This document shows, one piece after another, positions 1 to 54,774 of a stretch of 57,623 nt of DNA. The stretch's first letter is position 1. Every line of letters starts with the position of its first letter. The notes under the pieces are model-generated. The model did not search any database. It worked only from the letters and a program-made list of their open reading frames with translations, and was not told where the DNA came from. Source of the stretch: Flavobacteriales bacterium (GTDB taxonomy: Bacteria > Bacteroidota > Bacteroidia > Flavobacteriales_D > Sanyastnellaceae); NCBI GenBank assembly GCA_027491215.1, contig JAIXWP010000039.1, positions 1 through 57,623 of the forward strand, given 5' to 3'. Position numbers and translations under genes: made by a program.

Positions 1-2720
1 ACTGCTGTGGTGTTCAAGACGTCAATAATGATGGTTATGTAGTCATCATCATTCTTGATCAAAGCAAGAATCTAGTTGTAGCTTATCAGCAAGCAAATGG
101 TTCTTTCACAAGCTATAGTTATGGAACCGTTTCAAACAGTTCACAATGGGGAATGACCGTTGGTGACATTGATAACGACGGATGGTCAGATGTTATGGTT
201 GGTGGAAGCTATGATGGAGTTAAAGTCGTAAACATCGACGGTTTCACATCATACTCAATGCAAACTTATAACTGGGCGGATATCTTTATGCAGGCTTGCA
301 GCTTCGCAGATATCGACAACGATGGTTACATCGATGGATTCGCTTGTCATGATGATGGTCACAACGTGATTCTTCATAATGACCAAACTGGAGACTTCAC
401 CAATGGATCTTCAATGATCGATATGGTGTTCTATCCTGAGGTGCAAGGCGGAAATGACAATAGTGGTAACTATGGTGTTGTATGGAACGATTTCGATCGT
501 GATGGTGACATCGATTGCTTTATTGCTAAGTGTCGTCAGTTCATCAACGATCCATACGATCCCCGCAGAACGAATGTATTCCTCGTAAATGATGGAAATA
601 ATAACTACACTGATGAGGCTGATGCAAGAGGTCTTATCAATCTCGAACAATCTTGGACCGTTGATTTCGGGGATGTAGATAATGATGGTGATTTCGACTG
701 TTTCCTTACTACACACTCTGGTACTCTTGAAATTTATGAAAACGATGGTTTCGGATATTTCACAGATATCACTGCTGGCTCTGGTCTTGAAGTAAGCGGT
801 TTCTTCCTTCAAGGAAAAATGGCTGACTTCGATAATGATGGTTACCTAGACGTTATTCACGCTGGTGGTAATGAAGGTTATTATCACAATAATGGCAATA
901 GCACTTGGACGCTTATTCAAAACACATTTGACGCAAATGATGTTATGCACAGCTTCCAAATAGGTGACATGAACCACGATGGTTTCTTGGATCTATATGC
1001 TACTTACGGTAACAACTATGTTACTCCAGACAATAACAATCCAAACAAGCTTTTCATCAATAATACCAATAACAATAATTGGGTTGTTTTTGATTTGGAT
1101 GGAACAATCAGCAACAAGCAAGCGATTGGAGCTGTTGTAGAAATTCACGGTCCTTTCGGTACTCAAGTTCGTGATGTGCGTTCAGGTGAGTCATATGGTA
1201 TCACAAACACCAACCAAATTCACTTCGGTATCGGTCAATCAGAATCAATTGATTATGCATTGATCTTCTGGCCGGCTGGTGGAGTTTCTGTTATCGAAAA
1301 TCCTGGAATCAACACATTCCATAACATCACTGAACAAACATGTCCTAACTATGAAGTTGCAATTTCTATAGTAGGTTCAGGAAATGGTTGTCCAATTGAA
1401 TTGTCTTCAACAGGTTCATTCAGTAATTATATCTGGAGCAACGCTGCATCAACTGCAAATACAGAAGCATTTGTAGATGGTGTTTACTCTGTAGTAGTAT
1501 ATGATGAAAATGGCTGTGGTTCTGTTTCTAACTCTATTGAAGTAAATGTTACAGAAGATCCAGCTCCAACAATGTTGGTTGACGGTGAGATTTCTTTCTG
1601 TCAAGGTGGTACAGTGACATTGACAGCTTCTGAAGGTGTTTCATATTTATGGAGCAATGGTCAGAATTCTCAATCAATTGAAGTATCAGAAGCTGGTAAT
1701 TATTATGTAGATGTAACAGGTGGTTGCGGAACACAGCGTACCGCTGATGTAGATGTTGAGGTTTACTCAGCACCAGCTCCTGTAGCTACAGGTTTAACTA
1801 TTGCAAACGGTGCAACAGCAGATCTTTCAGCAACTGGATCTAACATTAACTGGTATGACGCTGTTGACGCAAGCAATCCAATTGCGACTGGTAATTCTTA
1901 TACAACTGGTCCTTTGACTGAAACAACTACTTACTATGTTTCATCAACTACAGTTTCTGGTGGTCCAGCAAACGGTGGTAAGTCAGACTTCGTTTCATTG
2001 GAAGGTAATAATCTTACCAATGCAAACTTCTACTTAAAGTTTGATGCTTATGAGCCATTTACTCTAGTAAGCGTTAAGGTGAAAGCAAACACATCAGGTA
2101 ACAGAACTATCCAAGCAGTGGATGCAGGTGGAAACTTGATTCAAGAGGCGACAGTAAATGTGCCACAAGGCGAAAGCGTAGTTACATTGAACTTCAGCAT
2201 CCCAGCTGGATCAAATATGAGCCTTCGTGCATTGACTGGAAGCAATCCAAACTTATGGAGAGATAAAGATTTGACAGATGGTTTCCCATTCCCATATGCT
2301 CTAGGTACTGCAGGTGCAATCACAGGCACTAACGTAAATGGTGCAGATTTCGACAATTACTACTATTTCTTCTATGATTGGCAAATCTCTACTCCAGAGA
2401 TCAATTGCGAAAGCGAAAGAGTGCCTGTGGTAGTAGAAGTACTTGTAGGTGTAAATGAATTAACTGGAATCGACGAGTTGAACATTTTCCCAAATCCAAC
2501 ATCTGGAATATTGAATGTACAATTCAATAGTTCTATCAATGGTGGTGTTGTGGTTAGAATGCTTGACGCAACGGGTCGTGTGGTTAAGACACAAAACATC
2601 AACAACGCATTCGGTAAGCAAGCTACACAGTTCGACTTGAACAACATGGCTGCTGGTGTTTATCAATTAGAACTTGTTTCTAATGGTCAAACGTCAACAA
2701 GCAAAGTAATCATTGAATAA
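1..2720 (+). CDS. FG-GAP/VCBS-ASPIC T9SS cargo protein (5' partial)
   Basis: The reading frame is already open at base 3, so the start and signal peptide lie outside the window and about 905 residues are visible. The first third carries at least seven calcium-loop motifs of the DxDNDG type (for example DIDNDG, DFDRDG, DVDNDG), as in FG-GAP/VCBS beta-propeller repeats. An ASPIC/UnbV domain follows at about nt 1110-1330 (GAVVEIHGPFG, RSGESYG). Then come three Ig/PKD-like modules (about nt 1340-1950), a beta-rich region, and a C-terminal type A T9SS sorting domain from about nt 2460 (NIFPNPTSG, DATGRVV, AAGVYQLEL). By family knowledge this is exported through the T9SS and displayed on or released from the surface. 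The ligand is unknown. A strong hairpin terminator follows the stop. Confidence 0.88.
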   Translation, partial: CCGVQDVNNDGYVVIIILDQSKNLVVAYQQANGSFTSYSYGTVSNSSQWGMTVGDIDNDGWSDVMVGGSYDGVKVVNIDGFTSYSMQTYNWADIFMQACSFADIDNDGYIDGFACHDDGHNVILHNDQTGDFTNGSSMIDMVFYPEVQGGNDNSGNYGVVWNDFDRDGDIDCFIAKCRQFINDPYDPRRTNVFLVNDGNNNYTDEADARGLINLEQSWTVDFGDVDNDGDFDCFLTTHSGTLEIYENDGFGYFTDITAGSGLEVSGFFLQGKMADFDNDGYLDVIHAGGNEGYYHNNGNSTWTLIQNTFDANDVMHSFQIGDMNHDGFLDLYATYGNNYVTPDNNNPNKLFINNTNNNNWVVFDLDGTISNKQAIGAVVEIHGPFGTQVRDVRSGESYGITNTNQIHFGIGQSESIDYALIFWPAGGVSVIENPGINTFHNITEQTCPNYEVAISIVGSGNGCPIELSSTGSFSNYIWSNAASTANTEAFVDGVYSVVVYDENGCGSVSNSIEVNVTEDPAPTMLVDGEISFCQGGTVTLTASEGVSYLWSNGQNSQSIEVSEAGNYYVDVTGGCGTQRTADVDVEVYSAPAPVATGLTIANGATADLSATGSNINWYDAVDASNPIATGNSYTTGPLTETTTYYVSSTTVSGGPANGGKSDFVSLEGNNLTNANFYLKFDAYEPFTLVSVKVKANTSGNRTIQAVDAGGNLIQEATVNVPQGESVVTLNFSIPAGSNMSLRALTGSNPNLWRDKDLTDGFPFPYALGTAGAITGTNVNGADFDNYYYFFYDWQISTPEINCESERVPVVVEVLVGVNELTGIDELNIFPNPTSGILNVQFNSSINGGVVVRMLDATGRVVKTQNINNAFGKQATQFDLNNMAAGVYQLELVSNGQTSTSKVIIE

Positions 2721-17748: not shown

Positions 17749-20700
17749 TTATTTGACAAGGATCGTATTACCATTTTCTTTGATCAAGCGATCAGCTTCT
17801 GAAAGCGTGATGCGCTTACCATTATAGTATGCAGTAATGAATGCATCATTGATTCCAAGATTTTTTGCTTGGTTTCTTTGATCTACTGCAGCTTGCAGGT
17901 TGTTGTAAATTCCAGAAGTATATCTGATCTTCTTGGTAGAAGTCAACTCGCTATTTACTGGTGAGATGTTTTTCAAGCTAGCGGATGGCACAGGCTTGCT
18001 ATAAACACCTACTTGAACAGTGTAGAATAATCCGCTTACAGTTTCAACTTGAATTGCAGGAACAGCATTTGGCGTTCCTTTGTAGTAGTTAGCATTGCGC
18101 TCTTCACTATTGGTTTCAGATGATACAGGTGTTGTTGATGCTGCTGCTGGCTTGCTTGCTGGAGCAGCACCGCCATCACCATAGATGTATTCCTTCTCAA
18201 GTGAAGCTAATGCAGCGTCACCATCAGTGATAGCAATTGCTTCGTACATTGGGATACGCTTTCCATCACGATATGCTACAACGAATGCATCGCTATAACC
18301 CATTCGGCGAATTTCCAATTTCACTTGATCAGCATTTTCGAAATTCAAGAAGAAACCAGCAGTGTATCTCGTAATGCCGGAAGCATTCTTTTCACCAATA
18401 AGTGGAGCGAACTCGTCGAATAGATTTTGAGGAATCGCATTTCTGAACGCACCAATTTGAACGCAGTAGTAAACTCCTTTCGGCATCGATGGATTCATAG
18501 GGATCGGACGCTCTTCACTGTACACCGCTCTGCTTGTTCTCACAAACAAATTCTTCGTCAATACATCTGGTGTGTTGAAGAAATATGAATTTGCTTCATC
18601 ATCTCCATAAAATCCAGGATCAACAGGTGAAGATGGAGTAGAAGGTGTGGTTGGTCTAGTAGGTGTTGTTGCAGCTGGTGTTTCAGATGTTGTTGAGCTG
18701 CTTGAAGCCACCGCAGATTTAACAGCCTCAGGATTTGTTTCTGATGCACGAACAGACGTCTTTACAACTGCCACATCTCCGTCTACACTGCTTGATGCAG
18801 GACTAACAGCAGTTGTAGTAGTTTCTTCATTTACACTATTGCTAGCCAAATCAGTTGTTGAAGTGTTCTCTTTAGCTACACCACGCTTTACGTTTGCTGG
18901 AGTACCGTAGCGAAGTTCTGTCAACTCTTGATCATCGTAAGTGAGAAGCATATCCATATTCCCATGAATATCTTTGATTTGCTTCATCAGTTCAAATGCT
19001 AATTGTTCTTTAGCAAATGCTTGACGGTAGTAGTCTGCCTTTTCTAAGTCATCTGTTACAGGACCAGCTTTTTCTCTCAAAGCCTGAGCTTCTTCGTAAA
19101 GTGATTTTGCATTCGAGTAGTTCTTCTGCACTTCATCACGAAGCATAGTTCTGCTATTGAGGTCTTCTTGATTTTCTGTATTGAGTTTGTCAACTTCTGC
19201 AGTTAATTTTTCGAATTCGGCTTTTGCCATTTCACCAATAGAAGGTGCATTGATGATTTCTAAACGTGCACGCTTGAAATATAGATCCTCCGCTTGACGG
19301 TCTAATTTTTTCTGCTTTGCAGCGTTAGTTTCGTTTTCAATTTCGCCTTCAATTAATAGGATTTCGTTCTGAATATCTTTGATTTTCTCTTGGTCTTTCA
19401 TATTAGCTCCAACCTCTGGGTGCTCGAGAGTAAGATATTCAATGATGCCAGTTTCGTATGCAAAGATTGATTCTGATTCAACTTTCGGCTTCATGATTTC
19501 TTTTAACACTCCCGCATCTTTAGACACTTTGATTGCAGGATCTTCTTCAATAACTTCAGCTGTTGTCGCTGGTTGATTTTCTTTTCCTTCAGCAGAAGTT
19601 ACATTCTCAGCTTCAATTACATCTTCTAAATTTTGATTGTTATTGGTTGCATTATTGCTTTGAGCAGCTGTATTTACGGCTACCGAATCAATTGGAGAAA
19701 CTTCTGAAGGAGTAGGCTCTGATGCAGAAGCTGTCAATCTCAAATCGCTTTCATAACTGCTCAATTTGGTTTCAGCGATGAGGTATTCTTTTTTAATCTC
19801 TCCGATTTGAGTGCGGATTTTTTCTCCTTGTGTCAAATCAGTTGAAAGCGCTAGTTCCTCTTGCTTTCCTGCCTCGAGTGCCTCAAGTGTATTCATGTAA
19901 GATTGAGTCAAAGCAATTTGATTCTCTAATCTTTCACGCGTACCTTCTGTTTCGAGAATCTCTTTATTCTCTAAATCAAAAGCAGCTTTGTAAGTATTGA
20001 CGTCATTAATTTCTTTTTCTAAAGAATTGATCGCAGCCTCTAGTTCTTTGTCTTTAGCAGCAGCAGTTGTCAAATCGTTGACTGTCGCACCATTCATTGC
20101 CACATCAGCATTTTGCTGACGAGACTTTTTCAAATCTTCTATAATTTGCTTCTGAAGATTGATTTTCTCTAAAGTGCGATCTAGCTCAGTTCCTTCGAGA
20201 TTTTCAATGTCCTGAAGTTTTGATACGTAGTCTGGGTTAACACTAGTAGCAACGACCTTTACTTTTTCAGATGTAAGGATTGGAGCTGAACTGCTTCCAA
20301 GCTTTTCATTCATTTCATTGCGAAGTGCAATTAGATTTTCGAGCTCTTGTCTTTCTTCAACGGTAATTCCAGTTCTTCTTTTCTTTTGGATTTCTAGAAT
20401 ACGATCTTCTGTGCTTTGTAAAGTACTAGCGAGGATCATTCTCTTTGCAGCCAATGCTTCTGGAGTACCAGTATTCACTTTCGCTAAGGTTGCATCTGCA
20501 TCAGTGCGCAAGGATTGTGCGTCTTTTACAACAGCTACTGCCGGATTAACATCAACAGCATTATTTGATTCACTTGCAGTTGCATTTTCTGGTTTTTTCT
20601 CTTCTGAAAGTGTTGAAGAGATTTCAATATTCAAACGATCAGTTCTTGATTCGTCGATTTCGCTAGCACCGATAAGAGCAAGTGTTTGCTCATCATTGAT

Positions 20701-23091
20701 AGCTAACTTCTCAAATCGCGCGTCAAGTGCATCCACCTTCATGGTGATAGAGCTCATCTGATTCTGGTCTAGCTTTACGATTTGATCATCAGTCATTCCA
20801 AGCTTAGAATCGGCTAATAGTTTTTCAAATATCACAACAGCTTCAGCAGCTCTGCGAGCTTCCTCACCAAGTGAGTTAGCGATTTCGTTTTGTCTTACAA
20901 TTCCACGCTGGGTGGATTCTAGATCACTTTTTAAGTTTGCAAATTCTGTTTCAGCAGCAGCTTTTTCAGAATTCTTTTTTGCAGCCGCAAGCTTCTCTTG
21001 AGCTGTATTTACTGCCTTAATCAACTCTTTTTCTTCATTTCTTAGATTCAGAAGTTTGTCTTCAGCAGAGTGAAGTGCTTGCTCTTTTGCGGTTGACTTA
21101 GATTTTAAGTCTCCAAGAGGATCGCCTGTTCCAGCGCGCAATTCAACGATACGTGCCTTCTCGGCTTGTAATTCAGTAAGGGCTAAGTCAAAGTTCTGTT
21201 CTGCCTCAGCTTTTCTTACATCATTAATATTTTGTTTCAACGCAGCTGCTCGTTCCTCTTCTTTATCTTTAAATACTCTAACATTTTCAGCAGCGATGAT
21301 TGCACCAGCAGCTTCTGTTCTCAATTCACGAGCTTCTCGAAGTAATTTCAATGATTCACGAAGCTTTACGACATCTTCGTCAGTAGTATATCCAGATGTT
21401 GAGGCACGAAGCTGTTCAGCTTTTGTAGTCAACTCTTCAGCCTTTCTCTGCTTATCTAAGGCGTAAGCATATGTGTTGTTGTATTTTGTATCTGATTCTT
21501 GTACAAAAGAAACGATTGTTGCGTATTCTTTTTCCATGTTTGCAGCAATGACATCGATGGTTTGACCATCACCAAATCCAGCAGATAAAGCGGCGTTGGT
21601 CATTGTTTTTTCTATGGATAAGTTCTCTTGTGCTCCAGTTGCCTGAGCTACGACCTCCTGTGTAGCAGAGTCACTAACTTCTAGACCAGCTTTTTTACGA
21701 AGCATCTCTGCTGCTAGTGCAGCGATATCTTCATTCAAGATTTCATCGAAATAATTATTGACGATGAGTTTCTCTTGTCCATTTTCTTTAACCAGTCTGA
21801 TTTGTTGACGAAGGGCTACAGGCTTATCGAATACAGGGATGCTTACGCGCGCTTCGTGAATAGTAGGACTGTTTTCTGTTTTCACATAATACTTATAATC
21901 ACCGCTCTTTGGAACGTATAGGGTGTATGCACCAGAATTAGAATTGGTGGCATTTTCCATGACTACACGACCGCTCATTTCATCTCTTACTTGGATGGTA
22001 GCATTCTTTTGCTCTGCATCAATATCTGAAACGAAATCGCCCTTCAAGTAAACCACTTGAAGAGGAATACCTTGAACGAGCACATTATATACATGCAAGT
22101 GATTTTGATCGCTAGTACGTCCACTCGCAAAATATGCGCGTTGATTTAATGAGTCAGCGATATAGAAAATATCATCATCTGGTGTATTGATTGCAAAATC
22201 CAAATTGATAGCTGGTCCGAAGTTGCCAGCCTTATCCATTTCACTTCTAAAGATATCATAACCGCCCATGCTGTTATGTCCTTTCGATGCAAAATATAAA
22301 GTCTTGCCATTGCTATGTAGGAAGCAATAGTCTTCATCGTACTTTGTATTTACTCCACCTCTTACTTTTTCAGCTTTGCTGAATTTTCCGTCAGGAAGAA
22401 TGTTGGCTTTGTAAATATCTTTACCTGTGCTGCCATCGGCACCATAGCTAGAAAAATAAATTGTAGTTGAATTTCCTGGGTAGTGAATAACACCTTTGGT
22501 TGTGCTCTTCTGATCGAGCTTGGATTGCAATTCTTCTGGAAGAGTAAGTATTTTTCCGCCAATACCATCAAGGTTCATATAGCGGAAGAAGTCAGATTTA
22601 TCAGTTTCAGTTTTGTTGATTACAACAACGTCCTTGATATTTGATAGGAGGTTTGATCCGTAGATGCATGTTTCAATTTCACGTTGAGCATTCATCTTAG
22701 CCGTGAGTTTTGGATCGGCGTGGGTTACGAATGTTTCATAGGCTTTTACTGCATCCTTAAACTGATAGTTCAAGTGATATGCCTTACCTAGGTAATACCA
22801 AACGAGTGGATCCTTTACTTCGCGTTTTGAAGCAGAAGAAAGAAATTGAATGGCTTTTGTTTTATCGGGATCACTATAGATGGCACAAGCGCCAAAACGA
22901 TAGCTGTATTCCGCGTTTTGCGGATACAATGAAACCAATTGTGAGTAGAGCGGGTATGCTTTCAGAAAATTTTCTGAAGCAAAAAGCTCATTGGCTTCTT
23001 TGGCAAGTTGTTGCTCACTACCAGCTTTTTGGGCTGAGGCAGCTGCTACAAACATGGCCCATAGGGTGATGACCAGTGTTGTGCGTTTCAT
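17749..23091 (-). CDS. Giant TPR-PD40-CRD-coiled coil-SPOR envelope protein (PorE-like front end)
   Basis: A 1780-residue secreted protein with signal peptide (cleavage near AASAQK). Domains in order: TPR-like repeats (about 25-150); PD40/WD40-like propeller blades (about 200-340; STTIYFSSYG, GKTLYFASKGHNSMGGYDIF, QRAYFASGR); a carboxypeptidase-regulatory-like module (about 360-437); a long coiled coil (about 520-1400) broken by S/T/N-rich linkers near 834, 1130 and 1415-1490; and two C-terminal SPOR-like domains (about 1537-1625 and 1685-1775; YYCVQIGAF and FYTVQVGVY, each ending in D-A-F and N/D-G-K-R-I). TPR-propeller-CRD is the order known from PorE, but PorE ends in an OmpA domain. SPOR domains bind peptidoglycan, so a wall-spanning anchor role is plausible but unproven. 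Confidence 0.85.
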   Translation of the reverse strand: MKRTTLVITLWAMFVAAASAQKAGSEQQLAKEANELFASENFLKAYPLYSQLVSLYPQNAEYSYRFGACAIYSDPDKTKAIQFLSSASKREVKDPLVWYYLGKAYHLNYQFKDAVKAYETFVTHADPKLTAKMNAQREIETCIYGSNLLSNIKDVVVINKTETDKSDFFRYMNLDGIGGKILTLPEELQSKLDQKSTTKGVIHYPGNSTTIYFSSYGADGSTGKDIYKANILPDGKFSKAEKVRGGVNTKYDEDYCFLHSNGKTLYFASKGHNSMGGYDIFRSEMDKAGNFGPAINLDFAINTPDDDIFYIADSLNQRAYFASGRTSDQNHLHVYNVLVQGIPLQVVYLKGDFVSDIDAEQKNATIQVRDEMSGRVVMENATNSNSGAYTLYVPKSGDYKYYVKTENSPTIHEARVSIPVFDKPVALRQQIRLVKENGQEKLIVNNYFDEILNEDIAALAAEMLRKKAGLEVSDSATQEVVAQATGAQENLSIEKTMTNAALSAGFGDGQTIDVIAANMEKEYATIVSFVQESDTKYNNTYAYALDKQRKAEELTTKAEQLRASTSGYTTDEDVVKLRESLKLLREARELRTEAAGAIIAAENVRVFKDKEEERAAALKQNINDVRKAEAEQNFDLALTELQAEKARIVELRAGTGDPLGDLKSKSTAKEQALHSAEDKLLNLRNEEKELIKAVNTAQEKLAAAKKNSEKAAAETEFANLKSDLESTQRGIVRQNEIANSLGEEARRAAEAVVIFEKLLADSKLGMTDDQIVKLDQNQMSSITMKVDALDARFEKLAINDEQTLALIGASEIDESRTDRLNIEISSTLSEEKKPENATASESNNAVDVNPAVAVVKDAQSLRTDADATLAKVNTGTPEALAAKRMILASTLQSTEDRILEIQKKRRTGITVEERQELENLIALRNEMNEKLGSSSAPILTSEKVKVVATSVNPDYVSKLQDIENLEGTELDRTLEKINLQKQIIEDLKKSRQQNADVAMNGATVNDLTTAAAKDKELEAAINSLEKEINDVNTYKAAFDLENKEILETEGTRERLENQIALTQSYMNTLEALEAGKQEELALSTDLTQGEKIRTQIGEIKKEYLIAETKLSSYESDLRLTASASEPTPSEVSPIDSVAVNTAAQSNNATNNNQNLEDVIEAENVTSAEGKENQPATTAEVIEEDPAIKVSKDAGVLKEIMKPKVESESIFAYETGIIEYLTLEHPEVGANMKDQEKIKDIQNEILLIEGEIENETNAAKQKKLDRQAEDLYFKRARLEIINAPSIGEMAKAEFEKLTAEVDKLNTENQEDLNSRTMLRDEVQKNYSNAKSLYEEAQALREKAGPVTDDLEKADYYRQAFAKEQLAFELMKQIKDIHGNMDMLLTYDDQELTELRYGTPANVKRGVAKENTSTTDLASNSVNEETTTTAVSPASSSVDGDVAVVKTSVRASETNPEAVKSAVASSSSTTSETPAATTPTRPTTPSTPSSPVDPGFYGDDEANSYFFNTPDVLTKNLFVRTSRAVYSEERPIPMNPSMPKGVYYCVQIGAFRNAIPQNLFDEFAPLIGEKNASGITRYTAGFFLNFENADQVKLEIRRMGYSDAFVVAYRDGKRIPMYEAIAITDGDAALASLEKEYIYGDGGAAPASKPAAASTTPVSSETNSEERNANYYKGTPNAVPAIQVETVSGLFYTVQVGVYSKPVPSASLKNISPVNSELTSTKKIRYTSGIYNNLQAAVDQRNQAKNLGINDAFITAYYNGKRITLSEADRLIKENGNTILVK

Positions 23092-52991: not shown

Positions 52992-54728
52992 TTACTTTTT
53001 TGTCCATTTCTTTTTACGGATATAAACTTGAATTCCACCAATAATCAATAGAACAAAAATTGGCAATGCCGCATTCTCGACCTGAATTCTACTGCGGTTG
53101 GCAGCGACAACGCTGTCGTCAAGCTTTCTGAGTTTAATGGTTCTAGAACGAACACTAATCAAAGCTTTATCATCCAACAAGTAATTCATTGAGTTAAGCA
53201 AAAATTCCTTGTTGTCATAGATGACTCTTTTCGCATAACGATCAAATCCTAGGGCTTGTGGCACAGGACCCTGAGGTGTTTCCATTACAGCATTGCGCAC
53301 TACGTCGCCATCTGCAATTACCATCATTGCTGTCGGTACACTGCTTTCTTTATATGCGATAACTGGGTCTTGTCTGATGGCTAGTGGAAGTTGATCCTTG
53401 AATGCAGAATTAAATTGCCCTTCCATCATCAAGGCCATAATCTGATTAGGCATTGCCCCTTGTTTGAAGTAATCCATTCCTAACTCTACTACACTAGTGT
53501 TGATTCTAACAGGAGTTTTTAGTGCTTTGGATAACTCAGAACTACGAAGAATCGGAATCTTCTTTACAAGTGGAGAAGAGTTGACTGTATCGATACTACT
53601 TGCAAATTCATACTTGATTGGATCCAAATTCGCCACGATAGGATGTGCATTTGCTGGCGGGAATAGGAGAGGAGAGTAGTACCAAGAAAACATTTGAATA
53701 TTTCTCTGATTACCCATAGGACCTGCGTCGAATGCAATTGGAGCCGCTTGAAAGTCGATGACAATATTTCTATTGATGCGGGCGCCATATTCGAATAGCA
53801 TTTCATACAACCCCATTTCGTTGCTTACGCCCATCGTTTGTTGCTGCGCGCGAAGGCTATCAAGATCCGTCAAAACCGGATCGACCATCCAAAGCACCTT
53901 ACCACCATTCATGATATATTGGTCAATTATCACACGGTCCTTATCCGAAAAAGCGCTGTCGGGCTTAGCAATAATTATAGCATCGTAAAGATTTTTACGC
54001 TGAGGCAAGCTCTCTACTTTATCACTAAGAGCATTGATTCTCTCATCAATGGTTACGATATCAATTGCATAGTTCTGTTCTAGCCCATTGAGGTAATCGG
54101 CCATTTCGATAGGCAATAATTCTCCATGACCTTGAATGATCGCAACTGCTGGTTTATCTTTTCTGAGCGCTTTTCTAAGATTAGAGGCAAGCTCAAACTC
54201 AAGACTATTCACAGATGAATTGATCATCTCATCGCTTGGCTCCGGCATATCGCTTTTGAAAAACTGCACAGGATATTCTTTTCCTCTGTACTCGATAATT
54301 GCTCCAGGCCAAATCAACTTTGATTGCTGCGCACCATTTTCCTCATAAGATAGACGAGTGAAACGCAAACCTTTTTCGTACAGGGCGTTCTCTGTTTCTT
54401 CAATCGTTTTTTTATCTCCGCTGGAGTAAGGATCAATGAACTCATATTCGATTTGACTACTGCTGTAGTCTCTGAATTCATCCAATCTTTCCTTGATGTT
54501 TTGTTCAAGTCTTTTGAATCCAGCAGGGAATTCTCCAGTTAAATAGCAACGCACAAACACTTTATCCTCAAGCGAGCCAAGCATTTCCTTGGTAGGTTCA
54601 GTAAGTGTGTGGCGTTTTTCCTCGGTGAGATCGAGCTTGAAAAAAACGAATGTGAGAATAAATGCTAGGAAAAAAAGAATTCCTATGGAAAGGAATAGAT
54701 TAAATAAGTCTGTTCTTCTTGCTTTCAT
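52992..54728 (-). CDS. gldG: Gliding motility ABC transporter auxiliary protein GldG
   Basis: A 578-residue protein with N-terminal helix (about 10-33) and C-terminal helix (about 549-570), separated by a large periplasmic GldG/ABC_transp_aux domain. LTEEKRHTLTEPTKEML is the typical start, and KPAVAIIQGHGELLP and MNGGKVLWMVDPV are recognisable. GldG works with permease GldF and ATPase GldA. The ATG at 54728 (MKARRTD) is preferred; two upstream ATGs lie within or above a small hairpin. gldF itself is at 9608-10339, not here. Confidence 0.88.
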   Translation of the reverse strand: MKARRTDLFNLFLSIGILFFLAFILTFVFFKLDLTEEKRHTLTEPTKEMLGSLEDKVFVRCYLTGEFPAGFKRLEQNIKERLDEFRDYSSSQIEYEFIDPYSSGDKKTIEETENALYEKGLRFTRLSYEENGAQQSKLIWPGAIIEYRGKEYPVQFFKSDMPEPSDEMINSSVNSLEFELASNLRKALRKDKPAVAIIQGHGELLPIEMADYLNGLEQNYAIDIVTIDERINALSDKVESLPQRKNLYDAIIIAKPDSAFSDKDRVIIDQYIMNGGKVLWMVDPVLTDLDSLRAQQQTMGVSNEMGLYEMLFEYGARINRNIVIDFQAAPIAFDAGPMGNQRNIQMFSWYYSPLLFPPANAHPIVANLDPIKYEFASSIDTVNSSPLVKKIPILRSSELSKALKTPVRINTSVVELGMDYFKQGAMPNQIMALMMEGQFNSAFKDQLPLAIRQDPVIAYKESSVPTAMMVIADGDVVRNAVMETPQGPVPQALGFDRYAKRVIYDNKEFLLNSMNYLLDDKALISVRSRTIKLRKLDDSVVAANRSRIQVENAALPIFVLLIIGGIQVYIRKKKWTKK

Positions 54729-54748
54729 GGTCATGCACAAAGGTGCAT

Positions 54749-54774
54749 CTAAAAAGGCCATGATTAATGGCCTT
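54749..54774 (-). terminator. Intrinsic terminator overlapping the WbqC stop
   Basis: AAGGCCAT (54754-54761) pairs with ATGGCCTT (54767-54774) over 8 bp; a five-U run follows on the minus strand. The WbqC stop codon lies in the hairpin. Some read-through to gldG is possible because the stem is short. Confidence 0.65.

Follow-up and report, generated by a model that had tools for sequence, protein, structure and literature searches.

A large exported protein with a PorE-type head and a SPOR tail

The window, i.e., the whole stretch of 57,623 nucleotides of Flavobacteriales DNA that was analyzed, carries at positions 17749..23091 of the minus strand a single uninterrupted open reading frame of 1780 codons. 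The frame and its orthologues define a gene for an exported TPR-propeller-CRD / helical linker / SPOR-SPOR protein of 1780 aa, hereafter called the giant, whose architecture, homology, conservation, distribution and gene context were established by computation. An assembly or frameshift artefact was ruled out by the many independent genomes that carry the gene. At the N-terminus we read a Sec-type signal peptide (MKRTTLVITLWAMFVAAASAQ; about residues 1–20, 23032..23091, minus strand), which ends in ...AAASA/Q and has no lipobox; a lipobox pattern scan of the orthologues gave 2 doubtful cases out of 108. In the Pfam scan of the giant, segments of TPR, PD40 and SPOR scored close to the threshold or under it. 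The best NCBIfam matches, at about residues 207–396, were PorE (76.8 bits, cut-off 600) and CHU_0125 (65.8 bits, cut-off 620). No match to an OmpA domain was obtained in Pfam or NCBIfam. The original prediction of a PorE-family front end, an absent OmpA domain and a SPOR tail was borne out by Pfam, NCBIfam, hhalign and the family SPOR profile. It had also held the role to be undescribed, and we found no description of this architecture in the openly licensed papers searched for SPOR together with TPR, WD40 or PD40 in Bacteroidetes.

The head begins with a TPR domain (about residues 26–151; 22639..23016, minus strand), recognized by Pfam TPR, by AlphaFold2 helices at positions 2–127 of the model and by matches to TPR structures with Z ~15. 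It is followed by a PD40 beta-propeller, shorter than in PorE (about residues 157–338; 22078..22623, minus strand), which is supported by the NCBIfam PorE model (76.8 bits over residues 208–396), by AlphaFold2 strands and by hhalign, and by a CRD-like beta-sandwich (about residues 347–447; 21751..22053, minus strand), an eight-strand module in the model with weak Pfam matches to CarboxypepD_reg and DUF3244 and an hhalign match to the CRD region of PorE-like proteins. The AlphaFold2 model of the head, for which an alignment of 72 orthologous heads was used as input, has a mean pLDDT of 91.6 and proceeds from eight helices (TPR) through propeller-like strands to the eight-strand beta-sandwich. 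Since the matches of the whole-head fold search were dominated by TPR structures, the propeller and the CRD-like module rest on sequence homology and on the strand pattern of the model. Giant heads were compared by hhalign with a profile built from seven PorE-like proteins that the same genome encodes and that carry OmpA. The whole front end was aligned over 406 columns (probability 100%, E 1.5e-44), up to the start of the PorE-like OmpA domain, and the propeller of the giant was shorter than in these own-genome proteins. As judged by profile comparison, the head is homologous to PorE-type proteins along its full length. The order TPR, PD40 propeller, CRD-like module foreseen for residues 25–437 and the expected match of residues 1–450 to PorE-type templates were both confirmed by these analyses.

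The middle of the protein is rich in helices. AlphaFold2, run with a 19-sequence alignment, gave a mean pLDDT of 76.5 and three helical modules with low-confidence or disordered linkers between them. On the minus strand, module 1 covers about residues 497–807 (20671..21603; pLDDT mostly 77–95), module 2 about residues 858–1123 (19723..20520), including a unit (residues 942–1001) that is tandemly repeated in other species, and module 3 about residues 1185–1394 (18910..19539). A linker rich in S, T, P and N (about residues 1397–1530; 18502..18903, minus strand), delimited by composition and by low pLDDT at model positions 947–989, precedes the SPOR domains. This region had been described as an 880-residue coiled coil; its helical character stands, but a single continuous heptad coil was rejected, given the three modules with their disordered linkers, longest helices of about 60 residues and a heptad-like periodicity that exceeded that of shuffled sequences in few blocks only. 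No significant structural match was obtained for the helical middle in a fold search. Strong conservation is confined to the head and the SPOR module; the middle is poorly conserved in sequence and varies among relatives from 712 to 2257 aa, partly because of tandem repeats with a period of about 100 residues, of which there are up to 13 copies in one relative (L103) and one in the window. Relatives with more copies tend to have a longer middle (correlation r 0.56), and a search of shuffled sequences with the repeat unit gave no matches.

SPOR domain 1 (residues 1539–1620; 18232..18477, minus strand; motif VQIGAF), scanned alone, scored 25.8 and 25.2 bits, above the Pfam gathering score of 21. 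SPOR domain 2 (residues 1687–1768; 17788..18033, minus strand; motif VQVGVY) scored 13.2 bits with Pfam alone, under the cut-off of 21, but it falls into one family alignment with SPOR domain 1 and reached 116.9 bits with the family SPOR profile. In that alignment 48 of 77 domains match Pfam SPOR, and the profile matched the CwlC SPOR structure 1x60 with E 1e-4. The claim of two C-terminal SPOR-like domains is borne out by Pfam for the first one and made probable by the family profile and the shared Q and R for the second.

The SPOR tail was present in 84 of 86 complete relatives, with 2–5 SPOR domains each. The SPOR domain of RlpA contacts denuded glycan through Q270, through the main chain at A273 and F274, and through arginines, R309 among them (PMC6895207). 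In SPOR1 the positions matching Q270, A273, F274 and R309, the last one by our own alignment, are kept in 83/84, 82/84, 82/84 and 80/84 sequences, respectively; in SPOR2 the Q is kept in 81/84 and the R in 78/84. In the extra third SPOR domains of other species the contact residues are lost (Q in 19/55). A C-terminal SPOR domain with the conserved glycan-contact Q is common to the giant and to RlpA, FtsN, DamX and CwlC, which are far smaller and have different N-terminal parts; to our knowledge, neither a TPR-propeller head nor a helical arm built of repeats is found in any of them. Glycan without stem peptides is the preferred ligand of SPOR domains, and all known SPOR proteins have a role in cell division or morphogenesis (PMC6895207).

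Other proteins with the same SPOR type

The same SPOR type occurs in four proteins of the genome: the giant, an N-acetylmuramoyl-L-alanine amidase with a C-terminal SPOR domain, followed by an MlaD/MCE-like gene (L192:556-1764, contig C31), a 525-aa protein (L193), and an 878-aa PorE-like lipoprotein with the order TPR-PD40-CRD-OmpA and one C-terminal SPOR domain (L012:61-2697, contig C105). The last one shares with the giant the TPR-PD40-CRD head and the SPOR type; it differs in being a lipoprotein, in keeping OmpA, in having one SPOR domain and in its operon, which also encodes a type-B-CTD protein and a member of the PorP/SprF family. A role as static anchors has been proposed for the PorE-like proteins of type-B-CTD / PorP operons of this kind (PMC9143113, PMC12618676), and the 878-aa protein represents a variant of this static type-B complex with two wall anchors. 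Its operon is the sole real link between SPOR and the T9SS, which keeps the earlier T9SS idea alive for the 878-aa protein; by this precedent, a T9SS link of the giant is possible.

Distribution and gene context

Most genomes of the family and of the order, among them Crocinitomix catalasitica (L145) and Salibacter halophilus (L155), have a strong orthologue of the giant, in open frames of about 1400–3100 aa, typically of about 2100 aa. In the tree the orthologues form a clade to which no PorE-like paralogue of the window genome belongs (support 96/98), and the diverged versions of reduced-genome members of the window's family still group with them. Paralogue-level matches only were obtained for about 18 of the 159 sampled genomes of the order (manual count from the listing). 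The giant is missing from some genomes; since it can be lost, a division role, if any, is not essential.

The usual gene order is prmA - an exported protein of about 1500 aa - plsY - giant - clpS - M48 (- NfeD - FloA), that is, housekeeping and envelope genes, with tpiA as a further usual neighbour. This order is not universal: in the window's own family the neighbours are different, with DUF547 upstream of the giant. In several species the genes downstream, namely clpS and those for an M48 metalloprotease, for NfeD and for a FloA-like flotillin, form a conserved envelope block (L155:15206-17821, L140, L136, L125); a search for NfeD, FloA and ClpS in Bacteroidetes found nothing in openly licensed papers. 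The exported protein (L056:12211-16659 and 50-odd other loci) is encoded between prmA and either plsY or the giant gene and is common throughout the order. It is beta-rich in appearance; Pfam and the PDB sequences gave no match to it, and NCBIfam none that was meaningful. It was rejected as a strict partner of the giant, as it persists in genomes that lack the latter. Two loci (L181, L182) read prmA - exported protein - plsY - clpS, the giant being cleanly missing and SprA and GldJ kept, and a third (L183) reads prmA - exported protein - clpS, also without the giant. A member of the window's genus (G002, 99% complete) has neither the giant nor the exported protein, and SprA and a match to GldJ are present in it.

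Relation to PorE and the T9SS

PorE is a known secretion-system anchor, and the barrel PorP is the presumed binding partner of its head. The giant shares with PorE (PG1058, NCBIfam NF052230) the order TPR - propeller - CRD, homology over the whole head, export and a C-terminus of the wall-binding type. In contrast to PorE, it has two SPOR domains in place of OmpA, a helical middle of about 1080 aa, a shorter propeller, a score far under the family cut-off (76.8 bits vs 600) and no PorP-like neighbour, and it lacks a lipobox, whereas PorE of P. gingivalis is a lipoprotein. The gldG gene and T9SS cargo that had been reported for the genome were confirmed in the window, where we found GldG (52992-54761, minus strand, 530.8 bits) and one T9SS type-A cargo protein (153-2720, plus strand); genes associated with the T9SS and with gliding are thereby confirmed for this genome.

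The search for a canonical PorE that the original prediction had proposed was carried out and gave a PorE-like protein with an OmpA domain and full-length coverage (491 bits, positions 4–647 of 648), in addition to about 10 further paralogues. A PorP-like gene lies near the giant at 1 of roughly 110 loci. SprA was detected in 157 of the 159 sampled genomes of the order, including nearly all of the about 18 with paralogue-level matches only, and GldJ is present both with and without the giant; because both are near-universal in the order, T9SS co-occurrence is uninformative for the presence of the giant. The retention of an OmpA-bearing PorE-like protein and the locus data indicate that the giant is no substitute for PorE and is not linked to T9SS genes. 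The idea of a PorE substitute serving the T9SS or gliding, on which the missing lipobox and the losses beside a retained SprA also bear, was therefore not supported. Moreover, the PorE-type front end is not T9SS-specific, since CHU_0125, with the order TPR-PD40-OmpA, acts in outer-membrane integrity as a Pal-like protein (PMC5891637).

Possible function of the giant

On balance, we favour the view that the giant is a periplasmic tether or scaffold that connects an envelope complex with septal or remodelled cell wall, and not a dedicated T9SS part. For this we infer a ligand, a location, a partner and a role. The signal peptide would direct Sec export. The SPOR pair would grip peptidoglycan, most likely the stem-peptide-free glycan left by septal amidases, as suggested by the conserved contact residues and by the SPOR type that the own-genome amidase shares with the giant. 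The helical middle may serve as a flexible arm of variable length, and the head, by its homology to PorE and CHU_0125, may bind a partner on the outer-membrane side. In this way the protein would contribute to a general envelope or division function.

Other explanations were weighed against this one. In a T9SS or gliding anchor, the PorE-like head would hold a PorP/SprF-type barrel or the GldK/N ring, with the SPOR tail in the place of OmpA. The homology of the head to PorE, the constant availability of a T9SS in the order and the own-genome operon that joins an OmpA- and SPOR-bearing PorE-like lipoprotein to PorP and a type-B CTD speak for such an anchor; but the genome has an OmpA-bearing PorE-like protein as well, the giant has no lipobox and is almost never next to a PorP-like gene, housekeeping genes surround the locus, and genomes without the giant retain SprA and GldJ. 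This reading is weakly supported and we consider it unlikely. A Pal-like tether that maintains outer-membrane integrity over the whole cell, as CHU_0125 does, with no special link to the septum, appears rather unlikely too. The CHU_0125 model (NCBIfam NF053607) matches the head in 29 of 29 scanned relatives, the two proteins have in common a TPR-PD40 head and a presumed outer-membrane-to-wall tethering, and deletion of chu_0125 causes a leaky outer membrane and ~6-fold more vesicles (PMC5891637). However, CHU_0125 is a protein of 656 aa with an OmpA tail, which the giant lacks, whereas SPOR prefers stem-peptide-free glycan (PMC6895207), and the score of the giant, 65.8 bits, is far under the family cut-off of 620.

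A spent or chance fusion without conserved function could be suspected from the poorly conserved middle and from the absence of the gene in some genomes, but it has next to no probability: the combination of this head with a SPOR tail is repeated in over 80 genomes, with 33–80% head identity and open frames of 1100–3100 aa, and this conservation, like that of the SPOR tail in 84 of 86 complete relatives, refutes it. A more specific version of the favoured tether, which we regard as doubtful, is a lineage-specific link from the outer membrane to the septum, in which the head would sit on an outer-membrane or periplasmic partner, the tandem SPOR domains would recruit the protein to amidase-processed wall, and the protein, with an arm that evolves in length by 100-residue repeats, would do part of the job of Tol-Pal in Proteobacteria. 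The exported protein of about 1500 aa encoded upstream would then perhaps be linked to the partner of the head.

The PorE-type head would be a general adaptor that is combined with various wall-binding tails (OmpA, OmpA plus SPOR, SPOR-SPOR), and such a head alone thus does not imply the T9SS. If the septal reading is true, the giant would be a new candidate factor joining the outer membrane and the septal wall in a large group of Bacteroidota, and the conserved gene block would hold a second large exported protein without a known family.

A short TPR-PD40 protein in another order

Beyond the order, the phylum sample gave mostly PorE-type paralogues, together with a TPR-PD40 protein of 477 aa that lacks a SPOR tail. 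It was found in two genomes from another order (L158:1444-2877, L159:1030-2457), in which SprA was not detected. Its gene is directly before NfeD, with a FloA-like gene also present in L158. In the tree, for which its propeller alone was used, it falls on a long branch with PorE-like proteins, while with the TPR-plus-propeller profile it scored 206 bits, higher than any PorE-like paralogue of the window genome. By these comparisons, the 477-aa protein is possibly a short relative of the giant.
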